From positions 1 through 25,843 of the IMG/VR virus record IMGVR_UViG_3300044617_000721: DNA of 25,843 nucleotides, one strand, 5' to 3'. Below the pieces are notes generated by a model. It saw nothing but the letters and a program-made list of their open reading frames with translations, had not been told where the DNA came from and did not search any database. This DNA is from a virus. How positions within the stretch are numbered: position 1 is the first letter of the stretch; each line of letters begins with the position of its first letter. Below, piece after piece: positions 1,220 to 25,843 of this stretch. Position numbers and translations under genes: made by a program.

Positions 1220-1384
1220 TTATGTTCTGAATGGTACGTGACCGGTCATTTGGTAGAGCTTGGCTTTGATGCGGTCGAGGCGGTTGACGTTCGCTGCCCA
1301 CTCCCACGTGTTACCGCCGCCATTGTTGTCCGCCAACCAGTGCAGGATGCGCAACCGTTCACTCCTCAACTCCTGGAGCTGCAT
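1220..1384 (-). CDS. Small hypothetical protein (54 aa)
   Basis: The ATG at 1384-1382 opens 54 codons ending TAA at 1222-1220, overlapping the end of ninG by 26 bp. The protein begins MQLQELRSERLRIL, continues through HWLADN and WEWAANVNRLDRIKAKL, and appears wholly helical. Its leucine spacing resembles small coiled-coil proteins often found after NinG in Bacteroidetes phages. The frame stays open much further upstream, opposite the ninG frame, but that extension lacks protein-like composition, so I take the internal ATG. Without this gene there would be a gap of about 170 bp in an otherwise gapless operon. I do not recognise a function. Confidence 0.5.
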   Translation of the reverse strand: MQLQELRSERLRILHWLADNNGGGNTWEWAANVNRLDRIKAKLYQMTGHVPFRT

Positions 1385-1868
1385 CTCGTCCTCCGGCTTG
1401 ATGTACCACTCGCTTGATACTGGCGTGAAGTAGAGCAGCTTTTTTGTAGAGGGATGCAAGCTCCACCAGCTCTGCCACCTTGTACGCTCGGTGCTGCTGC
1501 GCTCGTTGCATAACCTGATGAGCTCGTCCTGGCTGCTCACGTTCGAGATTGCATCCAAATAGCCACTGTTCTCCTGCTCGGTAAATGTTGCAGGAAACGC
1601 ACTGTGTGCGGACGTTATCCTGATCCCATCGTGTAGCCCAAAAGCGGCGAGAGGCGAAATGTCCGGCCTGCAGGTTGCTGACGTGGTCTTCTTTGCCACA
1701 GGTGAAGCAGCGGGCGTTTCCGTGTCTGTCTGCTGCTTCATAGCGCACCAGCTTGCTGAACCACAGGTCGACCTTCTTGACTGCCTGCGCGTGGGTGAGC
1801 TTCCTGCCCTTTGGCTTCGCTTTGGGTTTGGTGTGCAGCTGCCTGCTCGCTTTGGTGTCTCTCGCCAT
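1359..1868 (-). CDS. ninG: NinG-like recombination protein
   Basis: This 169-residue protein matches the lambda NinG (Rap) layout. A basic N-terminus (about 1-30) is followed by CFTCGK (C54, C57), LQAGHFASRR (68-77, H70), then RTQCVSCN (C90, C93) and WLFGCNLER, an HNH-like zinc-binding core. A helical C-terminus runs from about 110 to 150. Lambda Rap is a structure-specific endonuclease acting on D-loops and Holliday junctions; this protein probably does similar work in recombination-dependent replication alongside the SSB and the putative annealing protein. Its ATG at 1868 lies inside the preceding gene, giving an unusually long 131-bp overlap. There is no later ATG before the zinc motif, so the start seems forced. 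Confidence 0.85.
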   Translation of the reverse strand: MARDTKASRQLHTKPKAKPKGRKLTHAQAVKKVDLWFSKLVRYEAADRHGNARCFTCGKEDHVSNLQAGHFASRRFWATRWDQDNVRTQCVSCNIYRAGEQWLFGCNLEREQPGRAHQVMQRAQQHRAYKVAELVELASLYKKAALLHASIKRVVHQAGGRDAAPGVEE

Positions 1869-2307
1869 CGGTAGCCAAGATACCGGCTTTGGGCTTGTAG
1901 GCGGGCAGGTCGAGGACGTCGGCTATGGCGGTTAGGGACTGGGCGGTGCGCTCGGTGGCCGGCTTGACGTCCTGCACGTCGGGGTCGTACTTGGCTGCAT
2001 GGCGCATGCGGTGGCGTGCCCGCTCGTCGGCGTACTGGCGCATGCAGGCGTACAGCTCACGGGCCTTGAACCGCTCGTACAGGTTCTCGGCCCCCAAGCG
2101 TCCGGTCCGGATCATGGCGAAGCAGTGGCGCAGCTCATCGAGGGTCCACCCGTAGTTCTCGGTGATGACGGTCATGGCGTCGTCGAAGTCGGTGGCGGTG
2201 CGCATAGTCACCTTGCACTCGAGCGCGTTGACCAGCTCCTTGAGGGTGTACAGGATGGCGGCGTTGGTGTCTTCCGGCCCCAGCTCGAGGGCTTTGCGGA
2301 TGGTCAT
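1738..2307 (-). CDS. Replication-associated hypothetical protein
   Basis: I take the ATG at 2307-2305, which lies 4 bases after the stop of the replication initiator; the product has 189 residues. An alternative ATG at 2406 would add 33 residues but overlap the initiator gene by 95 bp. The core (about 15-105) is helical, with YGWTLDELRHCFAMIRTGR followed by LYERFKARELYACMRQYADERARH. This pattern resembles Bacteroidetes phage proteins encoded next to initiators and sometimes suggested to recruit host helicase. That resemblance is from memory and weak. The last 50 residues or so are polar and low in complexity (Gln, Ala, Glu rich), overlap ninG by 131 bp, and may be dispensable or the product of a frameshift. 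The gene is real by context; the function is unproven. Confidence 0.6.
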   Translation of the reverse strand: MTIRKALELGPEDTNAAILYTLKELVNALECKVTMRTATDFDDAMTVITENYGWTLDELRHCFAMIRTGRLGAENLYERFKARELYACMRQYADERARHRMRHAAKYDPDVQDVKPATERTAQSLTAIADVLDLPAYKPKAGILATDGERHQSEQAAAHQTQSEAKGQEAHPRAGSQEGRPVVQQAGAL

Positions 2308-2311
2308 GTCG

Positions 2312-3070
2312 TCACTTGTGGGCTGGGGGAAAGCGAGGCCCGTATCGCTTTGCCACAAGGCGCGCAAGGTCGTCCGCAGTGATGTCCTTACCTCGTGGTC
2401 TGTCATGCTGATGATTTCCCCGCTTGTTGTTAAGAGGAAAGAGCCCTTGCCATCCGTTGGCGATGGACTGGGAGATAATTCGGATTGCGATTCCTTCATT
2501 GTACTCGCTGATTTGTTGGAGGCGGTGTAGTGCGGTTTGGAGGCCGCGGGTGGTGTAGGGCTTGATGCGGCGCTCGCGGCGATCGGCCTCCCACTCCTTC
2601 CAGGCATTCATAAACTGGTCAGAATTGAAAGGCCAAACAACCTCGCGCGCACGCGCGGTGGTCTTTACTACTTCTTTACTATATCTATTCTCTTCTATAC
2701 TCTGCGCAACTGTGGTTGCTTCTTGGCGCAACTGTGGTTGCAACTCTTGCGCCTCTGGTTGCAACTCTTGCGCCTCTGGTTGCTTGCTTCTCTGGTTGCT
2801 TGCAACTACAGGCGCAACTTCGACATGGAGGCGCCGTTTGTAGCCGTAGCCGTCGGTCACGATGTGTCCGCTGGCCTCCAGCTGCTGCCGCATCTTGCGC
2901 ACGTGCTGTGGGGTGCAGCGGAGCGACTGGGCGAGGAACTCGTCCCCGGCCCAGCTCGCACCGTCCTGCTTACTCAACGCCATCAGACGCGCAAGGAATA
3001 CCCTGTGAAGGGGCGGCAGGTCAAGCTCCCACACTTCAGCTGGTATCCAAATGCCGTTGGCGTGTTCCAT
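2312..3070 (-). CDS. Replication initiator / replisome organiser (winged HTH)
   Basis: This 252-residue protein has three parts. The N-terminal helix-turn-helix (about 20-85) contains GDEFLAQSLRCTPQHVRKMR and a wing with YGYKRRLHV, like phage replisome organisers. A Gln/Glu-rich linker (about 92-135) contains a near-exact 7-residue duplication, PEAQELQ. The C-terminal helical domain (about 145-215) ends IISQSIANGWQGLFPLN, a form typical of phage initiator and DnaD-like tails. The family binds origin iterons and loads the host helicase. The linker-encoding DNA (2700-2799) is itself a tandem iteron array beside an A+T-rich tract, the arrangement known from lambda O. The ATG at 3070 follows the HTH regulator gene after 3 bases. 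No helicase or polymerase is encoded, so this protein probably recruits the host replisome. Confidence 0.75.
   Translation of the reverse strand: MEHANGIWIPAEVWELDLPPLHRVFLARLMALSKQDGASWAGDEFLAQSLRCTPQHVRKMRQQLEASGHIVTDGYGYKRRLHVEVAPVVASNQRSKQPEAQELQPEAQELQPQLRQEATTVAQSIEENRYSKEVVKTTARAREVVWPFNSDQFMNAWKEWEADRRERRIKPYTTRGLQTALHRLQQISEYNEGIAIRIISQSIANGWQGLFPLNNKRGNHQHDRPRGKDITADDLARLVAKRYGPRFPPAHK
2655..2799. other. Candidate replication origin: five iterons plus A+T-rich tract
   Basis: On the minus strand five units begin with GCAACCAnAG: they cover 2799-2784, 2783-2763, 2762-2742, 2741-2720 and 2719-2700. The central two are identical 21-bp copies, so most units repeat at about two helical turns. 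Immediately beyond them, 2655-2699 is rich in A and T with strong purine/pyrimidine asymmetry. Iterons followed by an A+T-rich unwinding element, inside the linker of the initiator gene, is the lambda O/ori layout. The repeats keep the reading frame and give the duplicated PEAQELQ in the protein. Confidence 0.6.
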
Positions 3071-3073
3071 GTC

Positions 3074-3325
3074 TTACCGTTGTCCGATGCTCTGCAGGTA
3101 CTCCTCGTGGTACAGCACCTCGCCCATGATTTGGGTCTCGGTGACGTTGCACTGTTGCACCATGGTCGGCATGTGCTTGAGCAGCCCGCGCGGGTTCCGC
3201 TTCAGCCAGTTGTTGATGGTCTGCGGGCTGACCTTGAGGTTGCCAGCCGCCATGGTCAGGCTTCCGTAGTGCTTATTCAGGAACGCTTCCATGCTGGTCA
3301 CTATCATGTAGTTTTCATCATTCAT
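3074..3325 (-). CDS. Small Cro/YdaS-like HTH DNA-binding protein
   Basis: I start at the ATG at 3325-3323, which shares one base with the TAA of the upstream HNH gene (TAATG); a longer frame would need TTG. The 83-residue product has a clear helix-turn-helix at about 19-46: SLTMAAGNLKVSPQTINNWL followed by KRNPRGLL. This resembles Cro or YdaS-type repressors that recognise short palindromes. It is the only small regulator-like protein in the genome. It is a natural candidate to bind the palindromes at 6167-6180 (early leader) or 70-84 / 25741-25755 (late leader). It sits directly before the replication initiator. Whether it represses or activates cannot be read from sequence. Confidence 0.65.
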   Translation of the reverse strand: MNDENYMIVTSMEAFLNKHYGSLTMAAGNLKVSPQTINNWLKRNPRGLLKHMPTMVQQCNVTETQIMGEVLYHEEYLQSIGQR

Positions 3326-3762
3326 TATGCCCAAATTTCATAAACAGACGGGGGAAACGGGAGGCGTGTTTTGTCGTTCGCCTGTTTTTCGAGGTATTTA
3401 ATCGGTGGTAGATAACCGTATTCCTCCATAATTATAAAATACTCGAGGCGTGCGGTCATAAACGGCGCTCCGTCTTTTATTGCCTCAATAAATGGGGTTC
3501 TGTTTACTGCATTTCCGCAAATGGTTTCCTGCATGATATGGCACATTCTGCAGAGTAGCATAAGGTTATCCGGGCTGTCCGTTCCTCCGTCACAAACGGC
3601 TTGAATGTGGCACCGTTGCGTACCTACGGAAAAAGCGCATCCCCAGCACGTCTCTAAATCCTCCGGGCATTCGAACATCTTATCGGCCCAATACTCTCGT
3701 ATTTCCCGCTTCTTCGTTTTTAGCTGACGGCTCATCTTTTTCGTTTTAGAACGGGAGGTCAT
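3325..3762 (-). CDS. HNH endonuclease-like protein, lower GC
   Basis: This 145-residue protein has a zinc/HNH core: C39 and C42 (CWGC), then QRCHI (C51, H52), D65-N66, and LLCRMCH (C71, C74, H75). The N-terminus is strongly basic (KTKK, KTKKRE), as in DNA-binding homing-type nucleases. The gene is visibly richer in A+T than both neighbours, suggesting recent acquisition, possibly as a homing or mobile nuclease, or an accessory factor. The ATG at 3762 overlaps the SSB gene by 17 bp; a second ATG at 3735 would leave a short gap. The last codon couples to the HTH gene by TAATG. The order of residues suits HNH, but H52 lies in an unusual CHI context, so I am less sure of activity. Confidence 0.65.
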   Translation of the reverse strand: MTSRSKTKKMSRQLKTKKREIREYWADKMFECPEDLETCWGCAFSVGTQRCHIQAVCDGGTDSPDNLMLLCRMCHIMQETICGNAVNRTPFIEAIKDGAPFMTARLEYFIIMEEYGYLPPIKYLEKQANDKTRLPFPPSVYEIWA

Positions 3763-4096
3763 TGGGCGCTGGAGTTGACGGTGGTGCCATGCGGTTGGTG
3801 GTGCGTCCTGCGAGCGGCTTCTTGGCCGGAGCTGGAGCAGGTGCCTCTTCCGGCTTGCCTGCGTACTTGAGCTCCACGAAGTATCGGCCGTTCCACTCCC
3901 GGCTGTTCAGCCAGCACTCGAGGGTGATCGGGTGCTCGGCCACCAGCGCCAGGGCTTCATCCACGTCGTCCTTCTTGAACGTGACGGGGTAGATGTTGCT
4001 GCCGGCCTCGATGAGCACGTCGCATACTGTGAATCCGGAGGCGAAGGTCTTGGGCTCTTGCACCGCCTTCACGGTGCCGTTAATCGTTATTTTCAT
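3746..4096 (-). CDS. ssb: Single-stranded DNA-binding protein (Bacteroidota type)
   Basis: The true start is the ATG at 4096-4094, overlapping the preceding gene by 17 bp; the product has 116 residues. The N-terminal 80 or so residues form a beta-rich OB-like domain: MKITINGTVKAV, CDVLIEAG, YPVTFKK, LECWLNSREWNGRYFVELKY. A Pro/Ala-rich disordered linker (about 83-108) leads to the acidic-hydrophobic tip NDLPF. That ending is the hallmark by which SSBs recruit partner proteins. Bacteroidota phages and hosts often have such short SSB-like proteins (DUF3127 type) ending DLPF. It lies in the early operon near the putative annealing protein, NinG and the initiator, consistent with replication and recombination. 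The OB assignment is by pattern; the C-terminal tip is clear. Confidence 0.75.
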   Translation of the reverse strand: MKITINGTVKAVQEPKTFASGFTVCDVLIEAGSNIYPVTFKKDDVDEALALVAEHPITLECWLNSREWNGRYFVELKYAGKPEEAPAPAPAKKPLAGRTTNRMAPPSTPAPNDLPF

Positions 4097-4361
4097 TAGT
4101 AAATGATTTAATGAATTTTGCCATCTGTGTCTGTGTCCATCGGCCGCGGGAATCGGGCCGGTCGAGGTGCGCGATGAGGCGCAGGTTGAGGTGGTGGTAG
4201 GTCTGGTCATCCATCGGCCCGTACATGATGGCATCAAGGGTTGCCTCGTCGTCCCACAGGACGGTGCACTGCATAAGTGACTCGAGGCGAACACGTCGCA
4301 CCTCGATGAGCGTGGTGCTGTCCAAAGCTGCCTCGTCGAAGAAGTCGTCAAGCTCGCTCAT
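4080..4361 (-). CDS. Hypothetical acidic-start protein (93 aa)
   Basis: I choose the ATG at 4361-4359, inside the last codons of the upstream gene (14-bp overlap), because overlaps of 14-17 bp recur in this operon; the ATG at 4385 is possible and adds 8 residues. The product begins MSELDDFFDEAALDS. It continues with a mixed region containing LESLMQCTVLWDDEATLDAI and ends in RWTQTQMAKFIKSF with a polar tail. It is probably a small soluble, mostly helical protein. I do not recognise a family. Its position between a membrane microprotein and the SSB suggests an early role in replication or host takeover. Confidence 0.6.
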   Translation of the reverse strand: MSELDDFFDEAALDSTTLIEVRRVRLESLMQCTVLWDDEATLDAIMYGPMDDQTYHHLNLRLIAHLDRPDSRGRWTQTQMAKFIKSFTNENND

Positions 4362-8408: not shown

Positions 8409-8622
8409 CTCCTGCCGGTTGCAGCTCGATAGGAACGTCCGGGGGCGTGCCAGTCACCGGCCGGTAAAATATGCCCTCTGCCTCCTCGTACCAGTCGCCG
8501 ATGTGGATGTTTTGGTCGGTGTCCTCCACGATTAAATTGTGCGGGTGTGGGTATTCCGTAGGCATGGCATCTGCCACAATCCGGTTGACGACATAATTGT
8601 CGCGAAGAATGACGTAAATCAT
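8395..8622 (-). CDS. Tail-fibre-associated small protein (75 aa)
   Basis: The ATG at 8622-8620 forms ATGA with the stop of the adhesin gene, which fixes the start. The product begins MIYVILRDNYVVNRIVADAM and continues with PHPHNLIVEDTDQNIHIGDW and YEEAEGIFYRPV, ending in a Pro-rich tail. The core 'V-x-N-x-I ... IGDWY ... FYRP' is the shape of small proteins encoded after tail fibres, some of which act as fibre assembly chaperones or distal tip parts. I see no catalytic motif. The chaperone suggestion is inference from position. Confidence 0.62.
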   Translation of the reverse strand: MIYVILRDNYVVNRIVADAMPTEYPHPHNLIVEDTDQNIHIGDWYEEAEGIFYRPVTGTPPDVPIELQPAGDGEG

Positions 8623-9584
8623 GAGATAGTGTATTCGAGTACCAAACAAAATCCATTTGATCCATTTCCGCCTGCTCCGCTTGTATATCCGTTCCGAGTT
8701 GCACCACCGCCGCCGCCAGGCGCGCCATAGTTACCTCCTGCACCCCCATTTCCTCCATTGCCGGTAGTGTGACTACCTCCTGAACTTCCCGATGAACCAA
8801 TCGCTATAGTTGGTGAGGCTGCTTTTATTCTTTCGCTGTGCGTCATCCTGTCTGCATAATTGGCCACGCCTGGGTTGCCATTACCACCGGACGCTGTGCC
8901 AGCTACTGCGGCAGTATTTGCTACACCTGACCAGTTAAACATGCGACTTCCAGCGCCTCCAGCTCTCACAGTGTTACTGGTGTTTACTCCTGCACCACCT
9001 GGTCCTCCAAGATTTACAACAATGTTTTCTGAAGTGGAATTCAAAGATTGTAATACGGATGATTCTCCTGTACTACCTCCGCCATCACTATCCTTTCCAT
9101 TACCGCCAACAATAAATCCAAACGCAAAGTCAGGTTGAGAATTTGCAGTAGTCATGCCTAAAACAGCGGCTCCCTGACCACCACTCCGGGCCCCATTACC
9201 TCCTTTTGCTATTACCAATGAACCAAATGATGTATCCCCCCCAGCACCACCTGTACCAGCACTTGTGCTGTTTGCACTAATTCCAGCGCCACCTGTACCT
9301 CCTGATCCTATAGTAATCGTTTCACTACTGGCGAGCGCAGATGCTAAAATTTGCGAATAAACAGCCACAGCGCCACCGCCACCACCTCCACCTCGAGCTA
9401 CCACACCAGTAGCAGCCGTTGCTCCTGAACCACCACCACCTCCACCCCCAACGCAAACTACCTCAATCATAACTAATCCACTAGGTTTCGACCAAGTACC
9501 TCCTGCGGTATATTCTCGAAGAGTCAAAACCAGCGTGCCGCCTCCGCTCGCCGAGCCTTTGTTTACAAATTTGCCTACAGCCAT
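8619..9584 (-). CDS. Glycine-rich tail adhesin / receptor-binding tip
   Basis: This 321-residue protein starts right at the end of the tail tip/fibre gene (TGATG). After a short N-terminus, the sequence TWSKPSGLVMIEVVCVGGGG begins the glycine-rich domain seen in many phage fibre tips (first strand, then poly-Gly). Long Gly/Ser/Thr/Asn tracts follow (GGGGGGGSG, GGTGGAG, GGNGGAGG, PGGGGG) up to LVLEYTIS. In T4-like gp38 and related adhesins such tracts form polyglycine sandwiches whose loops contact the receptor. By position and composition this is the likely host-range determinant. The gene has a higher A/T share in synonymous positions than the genes around it, as often seen in exchanged adhesin genes. 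No chaperone or peptidase domain is visible. Confidence 0.8.
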   Translation of the reverse strand: MAVGKFVNKGSASGGGTLVLTLREYTAGGTWSKPSGLVMIEVVCVGGGGGGGSGATAATGVVARGGGGGGGAVAVYSQILASALASSETITIGSGGTGGAGISANSTSAGTGGAGGDTSFGSLVIAKGGNGARSGGQGAAVLGMTTANSQPDFAFGFIVGGNGKDSDGGGSTGESSVLQSLNSTSENIVVNLGGPGGAGVNTSNTVRAGGAGSRMFNWSGVANTAAVAGTASGGNGNPGVANYADRMTHSERIKAASPTIAIGSSGSSGGSHTTGNGGNGGAGGNYGAPGGGGGATRNGYTSGAGGNGSNGFCLVLEYTIS

Positions 9585-12500
9585 CAGAGGTCGAAGATAT
9601 TAAGAGTCACTGTCAACGTTGATGCTGGCGTGGCGGTAGCGTAAATCTTTACAGCACCCGTGCTGCTGTCAGTGCGTGGCAGCACGCCCGCAGTGGCGGC
9701 TACGGACGCGCTGGCGTTGTCCGGGATGACGTCGACGATGCTGGTGGATAGGATTGCTGAATCCGAGATGCTTGCCTCATAGAAGCCCGAAACCAACGAC
9801 CATGCACCTGTAGCGACGGTCTTTCCAGTCACCTGTGTGGCTTTGCGTGTAGCCCACGACAGTGTGCCGCTTCCGTTTGTCGACAGCACCTGACCGCTTG
9901 TGCCATCAGCTGTGGGCAGCGTATAGGTCACGTCACCTGCCAGCGAGGCGGGCGCTTGGATGCGCACATAGTTGGTCCCATTGTTGGTGCCTTCACGCAG
10001 CTCGAGGATAGCTCCGGCGGTGGTGGTGGCTGCGGTGGTAAGAAGCGAAGCGAAGGACAGGGTGCCAGAGCCGTCAGTTTGCAGTACCTGCGCGGACGTG
10101 CCGTCGGCGGATGGCAAGGTCCAAGTAGTATTCCCGGAGAGTGTAGCAGGCGCCTGAATACCTACATAATTGCTGCCATTGTTAGTTGCCTCACCCAAAC
10201 GCAGCACGCCTGCGGTAGTCGCGGTGCCGTCAATTTCGAGCGTATTTGTGCTGGTATCGTATGTGAATGCTTCATCATACGTCATGTTCCCAGCACTGTC
10301 CTGGAACCAGACGGACTTAAACCCACCGGCAGGAGGCGTAGCACCTGGGATACCTATGCTGCTGTAGGTGGCTTGTGTAGTTCCTGCCCACTCCGAGCCA
10401 TTGTACACCAGCACTTGACCGACAGATGCAGGTTGATTCTTGACGTTTGCTAACTCTTCCAGCGTTGTTACTGGAATAATGCGCACAAATATCTCGCCGG
10501 TGCTTGCGTTCTGTTTTGTTACCCAGCCAATTAGTTGCGCGTAAGAATTGTACGCAGTTGGCAATGCGTTTGTCCAAGCTCCGGGCGTTGTGGCGCTTGC
10601 CAATAAAGGTGTCCCTACTGTAAAGCTACTGGTGTTCACTCCTCTAACGTACCCCACTGCTCGGGCATATCCTGACGCACCCGATGCAATGTCTGTCGTT
10701 AGAACGCCGAGAATTTTGTACGGGTCGCTATACAACAAGGATGTAAATGCTGTAATGCGCAGCTCGCCAGTTGATGCCTGACCGCCAAACTCGCGCACGA
10801 TTGTGCCTTTGGTGATTGTGCTTGCCGTGTTGTTGTATACAGGAATGTCTTTAGTGGCGAGATTGTTGAGGTTTGCAATATCCACTCCGTCGACTGTGCC
10901 TGTCACAACTATGTTGCCTTCCACCTTGGCCTGTCCGATGACGTGGAGTGCGCTGTCCGGCGTGTCTGTGTTGATACCCACAAGGCCGCCTTTTGTTTTG
11001 TCGGCGGTGGCGTACATGACGAGCTGCTGCCCTGCCGTGGGCGTGTTGTTGTCCTGCAGGTGCATCTCAAAGATGCCGGGGCTGCTCTCCGACAGGTTGA
11101 CCGTGCTGTTGCCAGAAGCAGAAGACATCACGATAGAGTTTGCCGTGAGCTCCACGCTCATGCCGTCCAGCTTGCTCTCTTCGTAGGTGATTTTGGTGCT
11201 GCCGTAGTCGTCGCCTACCGGCTGGAACGTGTTGTACAGCTTTGTGACGAGGCTGTCCACGTCCTGCAGGTCTAAAGACAGATCTAATATATCAGCACTC
11301 AATGATGCGCCCTGCAGGTCGCTGCTGATTTGCGCCTGCAGTGATTTCGTGCCGTTGTCGCTGGTGAGGTTTTGAAACCTTGGGCCCTTGCGTATGCGCT
11401 CATCAACTGCGACAGTGATGCCGCCGTCTGCGGCGTGCAGCTCGTAAAGCTCAAGGTCTTGCAGCCGCTCCTTCGCGTAGTAGTTCAGTGTGTACGGCGC
11501 ATACCTGCGGCCGTCATACGTGAAGGTGCTGTACATCTGTGGCACCGTTAGCTGCACCGGCAGATATGCCTGGCCGCTCTGCCGGAGGCGTGGTGTGTTT
11601 TGGCCGAAGAGAATTTCGCGCACCCCTAACTCATGCAAATCCTGCGTGCCCGTGGTAACGACGGAGCTGGTCCATGTCGTCGGATCGTCCCAGGTGGTGC
11701 TGCCTGTCTTGACCTCAATACGTCCTATTGCAATGGTTTCAAATGCGTCACCAAGGATGACGCGCTCCTGCTCAAGGACAGCAGTGTTGGCATTTGAGCT
11801 GGTTGCGCTGTATACCACGGTGTCCTCCGCTTCTCCGCTGTAGCGCAGGATGACGTAGGTGTTGGGTTGTGCGGCGTTGGTTTGGTCTGTATTTATCCCG
11901 GCGTCAAGTTCTAGCACATCAAAATAGACGGTAACCTCAAGGCCGGAAAGGTCGGCAGGCAACGGCGGAAGGTCGAGCTGGAAGAATTGCGCGTCGCCTA
12001 TGTTGTCGGTAGGCACGTTCTGTGGCGCACCGCTAATCGTAAACCTGTCGGATGCGTTGGTGGTCCAAGACGCAGCTTGCGGAGATGGGTACGTGTAAGG
12101 AATTGCCTGCCCGAATGGTGGGAGGTAGGCGGTAGCTGCTGTATTTGTAACCGTGTTTTTCAAATACCGGTTGCCACATTTGACTTTAAGCTTGATGCGG
12201 CGTTGGAAATGGTAGCTGTTTTCGCCAGGATAGCCCTCCACCTGATTCCACACGTTATGCAGCAGCAGCCGGAATACTTGGCCGTTGGCATAATCAAATT
12301 CATTGAGCACCACGGTCGTCGTGCCGTGGTCGGCTGGTCCGTAGTTGGCAACAAAAGCCGGGCCTGCGTTGTTGTGTTCAAATAAACGCCGCACTTTTTT
12401 CAGCGGCAGCTGGTACCCGTACTGCCAGCCGCGTAGCTTTTTGATACCGACGCCGATGTCGATGTTCGTGCTGACGTTTGAAGCACTCAAATAGTCGCCC

Positions 12501-25399: not shown

Positions 25400-25700
25400 C
25401 CTCTTCCATCTCCTGGTTCATGCTGCCTTCTAACGACCGCACGATGGAGGTCTTGCGCTGACGGTTGTCGCGCAGCTGCTGCCACTCCGGCCTGCTCCTC
25501 ATGTACTGGTCGCCGCTCTTGCCGGTCACCGTGTAGGTGGTGCCGTACTTGCTGATGAACGACTGCAGCATCTCCTCCTCCACCTCCACGCATGCGAGCG
25601 TGTAGATGAGCGAGCGGATGCCTGGTGTGATGATGCCGCGGCGCTGGTAGTCAGCGCACAACTGGTCATATCGCTCGCGGATGTCGGGGTGCATTTCCAT
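25374..25700 (-). CDS. terS: Terminase small subunit (P27-like)
   Basis: The ATG at 25700-25698 starts 108 residues. The N-terminus MEMHPDIRERYDQLCADYQR is helical and probably DNA-binding, followed by LIYTLACVEVEEEMLQSFIS. TTYTVTGKSGDQYMRSRPEW (54-73) is the typical P27-family motif '...G..y.......G....pnP......'. The C-terminus is acidic (NQEMEEDELDKFLG). Family members recognise the packaging site and hand DNA to TerL. The gene overlaps terL by 26 bp and its leader is the terminal repeat, which probably contains the packaging site. No Shine-Dalgarno sequence is visible; a run of eight A residues lies just before the start. Confidence 0.85.
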   Translation of the reverse strand: MEMHPDIRERYDQLCADYQRRGIITPGIRSLIYTLACVEVEEEMLQSFISKYGTTYTVTGKSGDQYMRSRPEWQQLRDNRQRKTSIVRSLEGSMNQEMEEDELDKFLG

Positions 25701-25843
25701 AGTTTTTTTTCTTGATGTTTTCTATTTGTCCCAAAAGGTTGTCAATACCATTGACGTACAATCAACTGCGCGCTCAAAGTAAAACCGCGTAAACACTGGG
25801 CGACCCCCCTACCCCCTGAAAAAACCTATATTGGAAGGCGTTT
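25672..25843. repeat. Terminal direct repeat, right copy (172 bp)
   Basis: This copy matches positions 1-172 with four mismatches (25677, 25798, 25801, 25840). It holds the first 29 bases of terS and its leader. The 25798 and 25801 differences change a hairpin-capable TAGGGG-ACC-CCCCTA in the left copy so that the stem is lost here, while the palindrome at 25741-25755 is unchanged. Confidence 0.93.
25719..25755 (-). promoter_or_regulatory. Possible late promoter and overlapping palindrome
   Basis: On the minus strand TTGACA (25745-25740) is followed after 15 bases by TAGAAA (25724-25719), a weak sigma70-like pair. The perfect palindrome at 25741-25755 covers the TTGACA. A promoter is required here because the terminase gene begins the late operon, but the exact elements are uncertain; the Bacteroidota TTTG/TAnnTTTG pair is not seen at good spacing. 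Confidence 0.3.

Follow-up and report, generated by a model that had tools for sequence, protein, structure and literature searches.

The stretch between positions 2656 and 2820 of the 25,843-bp sequence analyzed here (hereafter, the window) is very probably the replication origin of a phage, located within the gene of its own initiator. This reading, which draws on comparison of sequences and on analogy with mapped origins, bears out the original prediction of an origin at iterons inside the initiator gene and is supported by the spacing of the repeats in relatives, by the low synonymous divergence (pS) of the linker that they encode, and by natural swaps of alleles. In these swaps, the half of the protein that binds DNA is exchanged along with the sites, which is what makes an origin so probable.

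An iteron array within an O-like initiator gene

The minus strand of the window carries, at positions 2710-2799, five exact copies of GCAACCANAG, i.e. GCAACCA(G/C)AG (Table 1), and no further exact copy was found on either strand of the whole 25,843-bp window. All five GCAACCAnAG units that had been predicted on this strand at intervals of 16-22 bp were therefore recovered as exact copies; of the predicted array limits, 2700-2799, the end was correct, whereas the start lies at 2710 instead of 2700. In the coding direction, successive units start 16, 21, 21, and 22 bp apart and span codons 91-121 of the initiator gene (~270-360 nt into it), in codon phases 1, 2, 2, 2, and 0, so that all three reading frames are occupied. 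The final two units in this direction read CACAG where the others read CAGAG, and the right arm of the dyad that they yield is partially retained in units 1-3. An inverted, iteron-like sixth unit (GCAACTACAG in the window) reads CTGTAGTTGC or CTGTGGTTGC in the other close genes of the window's allele type (type A, see below) and in the relatives L041 and L043. Across the window, Tandem Repeats Finder scored the 21-bp part of the array (2735-2783) highest. When the initiator gene was shuffled 1000 times under each of two schemes, the 32 pairs of repeated 10-mers observed compared with maxima of 18 (synonymous-codon shuffles) and 7 (whole-codon shuffles), and pairs in different frames, counted alone, were likewise unmatched by any shuffle. 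Since the repeats exceed all shuffles, we conclude that the array is real and that chance is excluded.

The protein encoded around these repeats matched PHROG_678, annotated as 'replication initiation O-like', over residues 27-227 (E = 2.6e-13; lambda O itself matched at 1.7e-35). The mean confidence of its structure model was low (53.5), so that the domain layout alone was used. In this layout, residues 74-142 form a disordered linker (AlphaFold pLDDT < 50) that includes the iteron-encoded stretch. The profile match and the predicted layout thus agree with the earlier description of a winged-HTH replication protein with the units in its linker, and the PEAQELQ duplication lies where it had been placed, within the segment predicted to be disordered.

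An A+T-rich, purine-biased tract had also been predicted beside the array. When stability was computed for 45-bp segments across the whole window, positions 2660-2704 tied with 4080-4124 for the lowest value (69% A+T; low-stability z = +4.0), and purines make up 73% of the coding strand over the 51-nt tract. The homologous tract ranked first for instability in the relatives L009, L015, L042, and L044.

Table 1. Features of the origin region and early gene cluster, in window coordinates
Feature	Position	Strand	Basis
NinG-like nuclease gene	1359-1868	-	PF05766 2.6e-8; PHROG_5034 1.9e-19
Gene in lambda P position, 189 aa, candidate helicase loader	1738-2307	-	Directly downstream in relatives with this C-domain
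O-like replication initiator gene, 252 aa	2312-3070	-	PHROG_678 match; AlphaFold secondary structure
C-terminal helical domain	2315-2644	-	Helices 151-166, 174-187, 192-204; common to type A and type B alleles
Exchanged cassette	2656-3075		Type B loci match window outside, hardly or not inside
A+T-rich, purine-biased tract, proposed unwinding element	2660-2704		Tied least stable 45 bp of window
Iteron 5, GCAACCACAG	2710-2719	-	Codon phase 0; dyad GCAAC-CACA-GTTGC
Iteron 4, GCAACCACAG	2732-2741	-	Codon phase 2; with next 4 nt, dyad GCAAC-CACA-GTTGC
Iteron 3, GCAACCAGAG	2753-2762	-	Codon phase 2
Iteron 2, GCAACCAGAG	2774-2783	-	Codon phase 2
Iteron 1, GCAACCAGAG	2790-2799	-	Codon phase 1
Inverted iteron-like sixth unit, GCAACTACAG	2802-2811	+	1 mismatch
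N-terminal winged-helix domain, residues 1-84	2819-3070	-	H-H-H-E-E pattern, residues 20-83; swaps together with iterons
DUF3127/single-strand-binding-like gene, same early cluster	3746-4096	-	PF11325 1.2e-6; phrog_4932 0.001

Conservation and exchange of the array among relatives

Close type A relatives (L002-L008) have the same N-domain and array as the window. Three further loci (L041, L042, and L043) have N-domains 78-85% identical to that of the window and different C-domains, and their arrays comprise five units at exactly 16, 21, 21, and 22 bp, with an extra sixth unit in L042. In these loci the linker peptide PEAQELQ is changed to PEKQELQ, PQLQELQ, or PQLQKLQ, so that spacing is indeed kept while the peptide varies. 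The DNA that L042 and L043 have in common with the window is confined to the N-domain, the iterons, and the tract; L041 has these and a piece of the C-domain of ~100 bp. Every type A, type B, or type C locus read across this part of the gene has an array, and no intact close homolog without repeats was found.

At synonymous sites, the linker has hardly changed. For type A including L041-L043, pS was 0.033 in the linker versus 0.497 in the N-domain, and nonsynonymous divergence of the linker in the same set (0.057) exceeded the synonymous value. The window and L041-L043 alone gave 0.030 versus 0.665, close type A gave 0.016 versus 0.147, and type B gave 0.012 versus 0.132. These ratios are descriptive, as genome pairs are non-independent, but the effect is repeated across separate lineages. 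A linker that was neutral or selected for its peptide would not give such low pS; judged from these substitution patterns and from a spacing that stays fixed across peptide changes, selection therefore acts on the linker DNA rather than on the peptide, as had been proposed.

Type B loci (L009-L017) have, as far as their contigs extend, the window's C-domain and upstream gene together with another winged helix and another array. This array consists of five copies of CCGACACGAACGTC (one with one mismatch) spaced 19, 23, 23, and 23 bp apart and occupying all three frames. The DNA match of type B to the window ends at 3076, six bases short of the start codon, and restarts at 2694 or 2655; the flanks are 92-96% identical in the main loci, and the downstream flank of L015 is 87% identical. 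The exchanged block thus contains the N-domain, its sites, and most of the A+T-rich tract. In type C (L044 and L045), the N-domain is 54% identical to that of type A, and units of GTTCCTRTAG are spaced 16, 16, 16, 21, 21, and 21 bp apart. L042, with a type A array, and L044, with a type C array, have the tract and the middle domain in common but not the array, a pattern that implies another, independent exchange, this time on a different C-domain.

From these alignments, the winged-helix domain, its sites, and the tract evidently move jointly, as a cassette of ~400 bp. A wider proposal, which we offer as a tentative and rather doubtful one, is that a self-contained replicator-specificity cassette of this size travels from one phage genome to another, even where the two are otherwise unrelated, and joins different C-domains, with junctions that recur at the A+T-rich tract, and that phages exchange it because selection favors escape from interference with replication by co-infecting phages or satellites with the same origin. 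The initiators of L041, L042, L043, and L044 are three-part mosaics of an N-domain with its array, a middle domain, and a C-tail shared with the overlapping downstream gene, as is the C-tail of L045. A functional tie between this C-tail and the downstream gene was considered and dropped, since the two genes overlap there.

Three other explanations of the repeats were weighed against an origin. That they arose merely by slippage during replication of a linker that is disordered and free of constraint would fit the predicted disorder and the near-perfect 21-bp tandem formed by units 2-4. However, a neutral linker should gain synonymous change, and this one is ~10-15 times more conserved at synonymous sites than the neighboring domain; genomes that differ by a pS of 0.665 in the N-domain have the same array spacing, and arrays differ along with the N-domain between the same flanks. 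Slippage predicts neither arrays that track the domain, nor the use of all frames, nor synonymous suppression, and we reject it, as the alternative named in the original prediction, as highly improbable. Synonymous constraint could also reflect mRNA structure or an RNA element that the transcript of the initiator contains, for example one that controls translation, and the fold of the coding strand does exceed shuffles in stability for type A (z = -4.0, -4.3, and -3.4) and for type C (z = -6.2). Type B lacks such an excess (z = -0.7), and we attribute that of the other types to the dyad-symmetric repeats; what the alleles have in common is the repeat spacing of ~16-23 bp rather than any structure, which leaves an RNA element with next to no credibility.

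The array might instead be an operator, bound by the initiator or another regulator, that autoregulates the initiator operon. Winged-helix proteins are often repressors, and binding within the gene could block transcription. Against this, no exact unit lies near the operon start or elsewhere in the window, the array sits well inside the gene and, in every allele examined, beside the DNA with the lowest stability in that region, and this architecture agrees with that of mapped origins. An operator in place of an origin is therefore quite unlikely, and autoregulation could still come on top of origin function.

Known systems and a proposed mechanism

In phage lambda, O dimers bind 18-bp iterons within the O gene and strain the adjoining 39-bp A+T-rich region, and O combines N-terminal DNA binding, a flexible linker, and a C-domain that contacts P (PMC6022878, PMC7466680). 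The window resembles this system in having iterons in the middle of the gene, between the N-terminal DNA-binding and C-terminal domains, an A+T-rich region of ~40 bp directly downstream of them, and a gene at the P position followed by NinG, as in the lambda nin region. The annotated lambda iterons (39034, 39054, 39078, and 39101) are spaced 20, 24, and 23 bp apart, as compared with 16-22 bp in the window. Each lambda iteron is an inverted repeat with hyphenated symmetry; in the window, units 4 and 5 form a dyad, and units 1-3 have part of its right arm. However, lambda has four 18-bp dyads and the window five 10-bp cores of unrelated sequence. Lambda O belongs to phrog_277, to which the window protein had no match at E≤1, and direct comparison with lambda O by hhalign was not significant (small, shallow alignments). 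Moreover, lambda has P (phrog_109) downstream, whereas the downstream protein of the window had no detectable similarity to lambda P, including by direct hhalign (again with small, shallow alignments). The label 'lambda-like' thus holds for the architecture and the PHROG superfamily, but not for the PHROG of lambda O or for similarity to lambda P.

A second parallel comes from RepA_N plasmids such as pSK41, in which the Rep boxes occupy the center of the rep gene, the origin encodes the linker domain, and the boxes are bound by the N-terminal winged helix; in pPR9, a block of ~500 bp with the N-domain and origin is replaced by one with a phage-type HTH_36 (PF13730) N-domain, between flanks that are 97-99% identical (PMC5703833). 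In the window, too, the repeats are central and encode the linker, and its relatives exchange N-domain and probable origin as a block as pPR9 does. The RepA_N initiator N-domains 4pql, 4pt7, and 5kbj were the nearest PDB folds of the window protein (E 0.007-0.025), a weak likeness even at best (E 0.007, TM 0.5 by target length). The two differ in that one is a plasmid and the other a phage system, in that the window protein had no Pfam match to the RepA_N domain PF06970 at E≤1, and in a C-domain that is unrelated as far as tested. The HTH_36 match of the window protein was weak and under the curated cut-off. DnaD-like and replisome-organizer initiators also have a winged-helix N-domain; their matches to the window protein were partial, consisting of weak profile matches (PHROG_270 and PHROG_186) and of DnaD-type and replisome-organizer proteins among the viral structure matches. 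The window system would work like lambda ori/O and the RepA_N plasmids but strictly belongs to neither, given its different PHROG and lack of P on the one hand and the missing Pfam match on the other.

By analogy with lambda, we infer binding, melting, loader recruitment, and origin activity as follows. The winged-helix N-domain would bind the five in-gene iterons, probably as dimers, at sites about two helical turns apart. The resulting nucleoprotein complex would strain and then melt the adjoining A+T-rich tract, while the disordered, iteron-encoded linker would tether the C-domain. The C-domain would in turn recruit a helicase or loader, perhaps the product of the gene directly downstream, and replication would start.

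Genome context and distant O-like initiators

The downstream gene is conserved between the initiator and NinG and is a candidate new helicase loader. Its product had a single PHROG match, to phrog_26016 (function unknown, 8e-4), and a PDB search with its predicted structure, of low mean confidence, gave no fold match or family. Upstream, an HNH endonuclease-like gene (3325-3762, minus strand) is found among relatives only in the near-identical L002; in those that lack it, positions 3748 and 3320 are adjacent, and it seems to have been inserted recently, upstream of the gene preceding the initiator. At further early-region junctions (~4545/4551, 5353/5378, 5562/5683, and 6063/6188), the inserts of relatives vary in length, which suggests repeated gain and loss of small genes.

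The window ends (1-172 and 25672-25843) form an imperfect direct repeat of ~172 bp, with no exact end repeat, and contig L002 spans the joint between them with a single repeat copy; this makes it probable that the contig represents an entire genome, ~25.67 kb long. Cumulative GC skew, proposed as a check on the origin, showed no change at 2.7 kb and is uninformative here, since the minus strand carries almost every gene. The skew is strongly reversed locally at 8500-10000, over a glycine-rich structural gene (8619-9584, minus strand), which probably reflects coding composition rather than replication. Scans of genome contigs and a megablast search against phage isolates returned no relatives.

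Beyond these relatives, we gathered 22 distinct types of distant O-like initiators via the N-domain and scored them by exact 9-mer repeats. Half of them (11/22) had more repeated 9-mers within the gene than any of 200 shuffles. The repeats, of unrelated sequence, mostly lie right behind the winged helix, often with a unit spacing of 22-23 bp, and in five distant families a synonymous trough was found at or just before this place. Significant exact repeats were missing in the other half, a measure that degenerate iterons would escape. In-gene repeats are thus common across distant O-like initiators, at a level short of established universality. A literature search for phage origins inside initiator genes, lambda aside, returned nothing specific.

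In-gene origins are known as an architecture from lambdoid phages, Stx phages among them, and RepA_N plasmids; the window and its relatives add unusually clear natural evidence. A probable origin is assigned in an uncultivated phage group without an isolate, on evidence beyond repeat counts, and natural allele swaps serve as domain-exchange experiments. The pairing of three DNA-binding domains with three site sequences offers material for deducing how phage winged-helix initiators recognize their sites. The survey of distant types suggests that in-gene origins are common in the O-like superfamily and may be found by a trough in synonymous divergence behind the winged helix.
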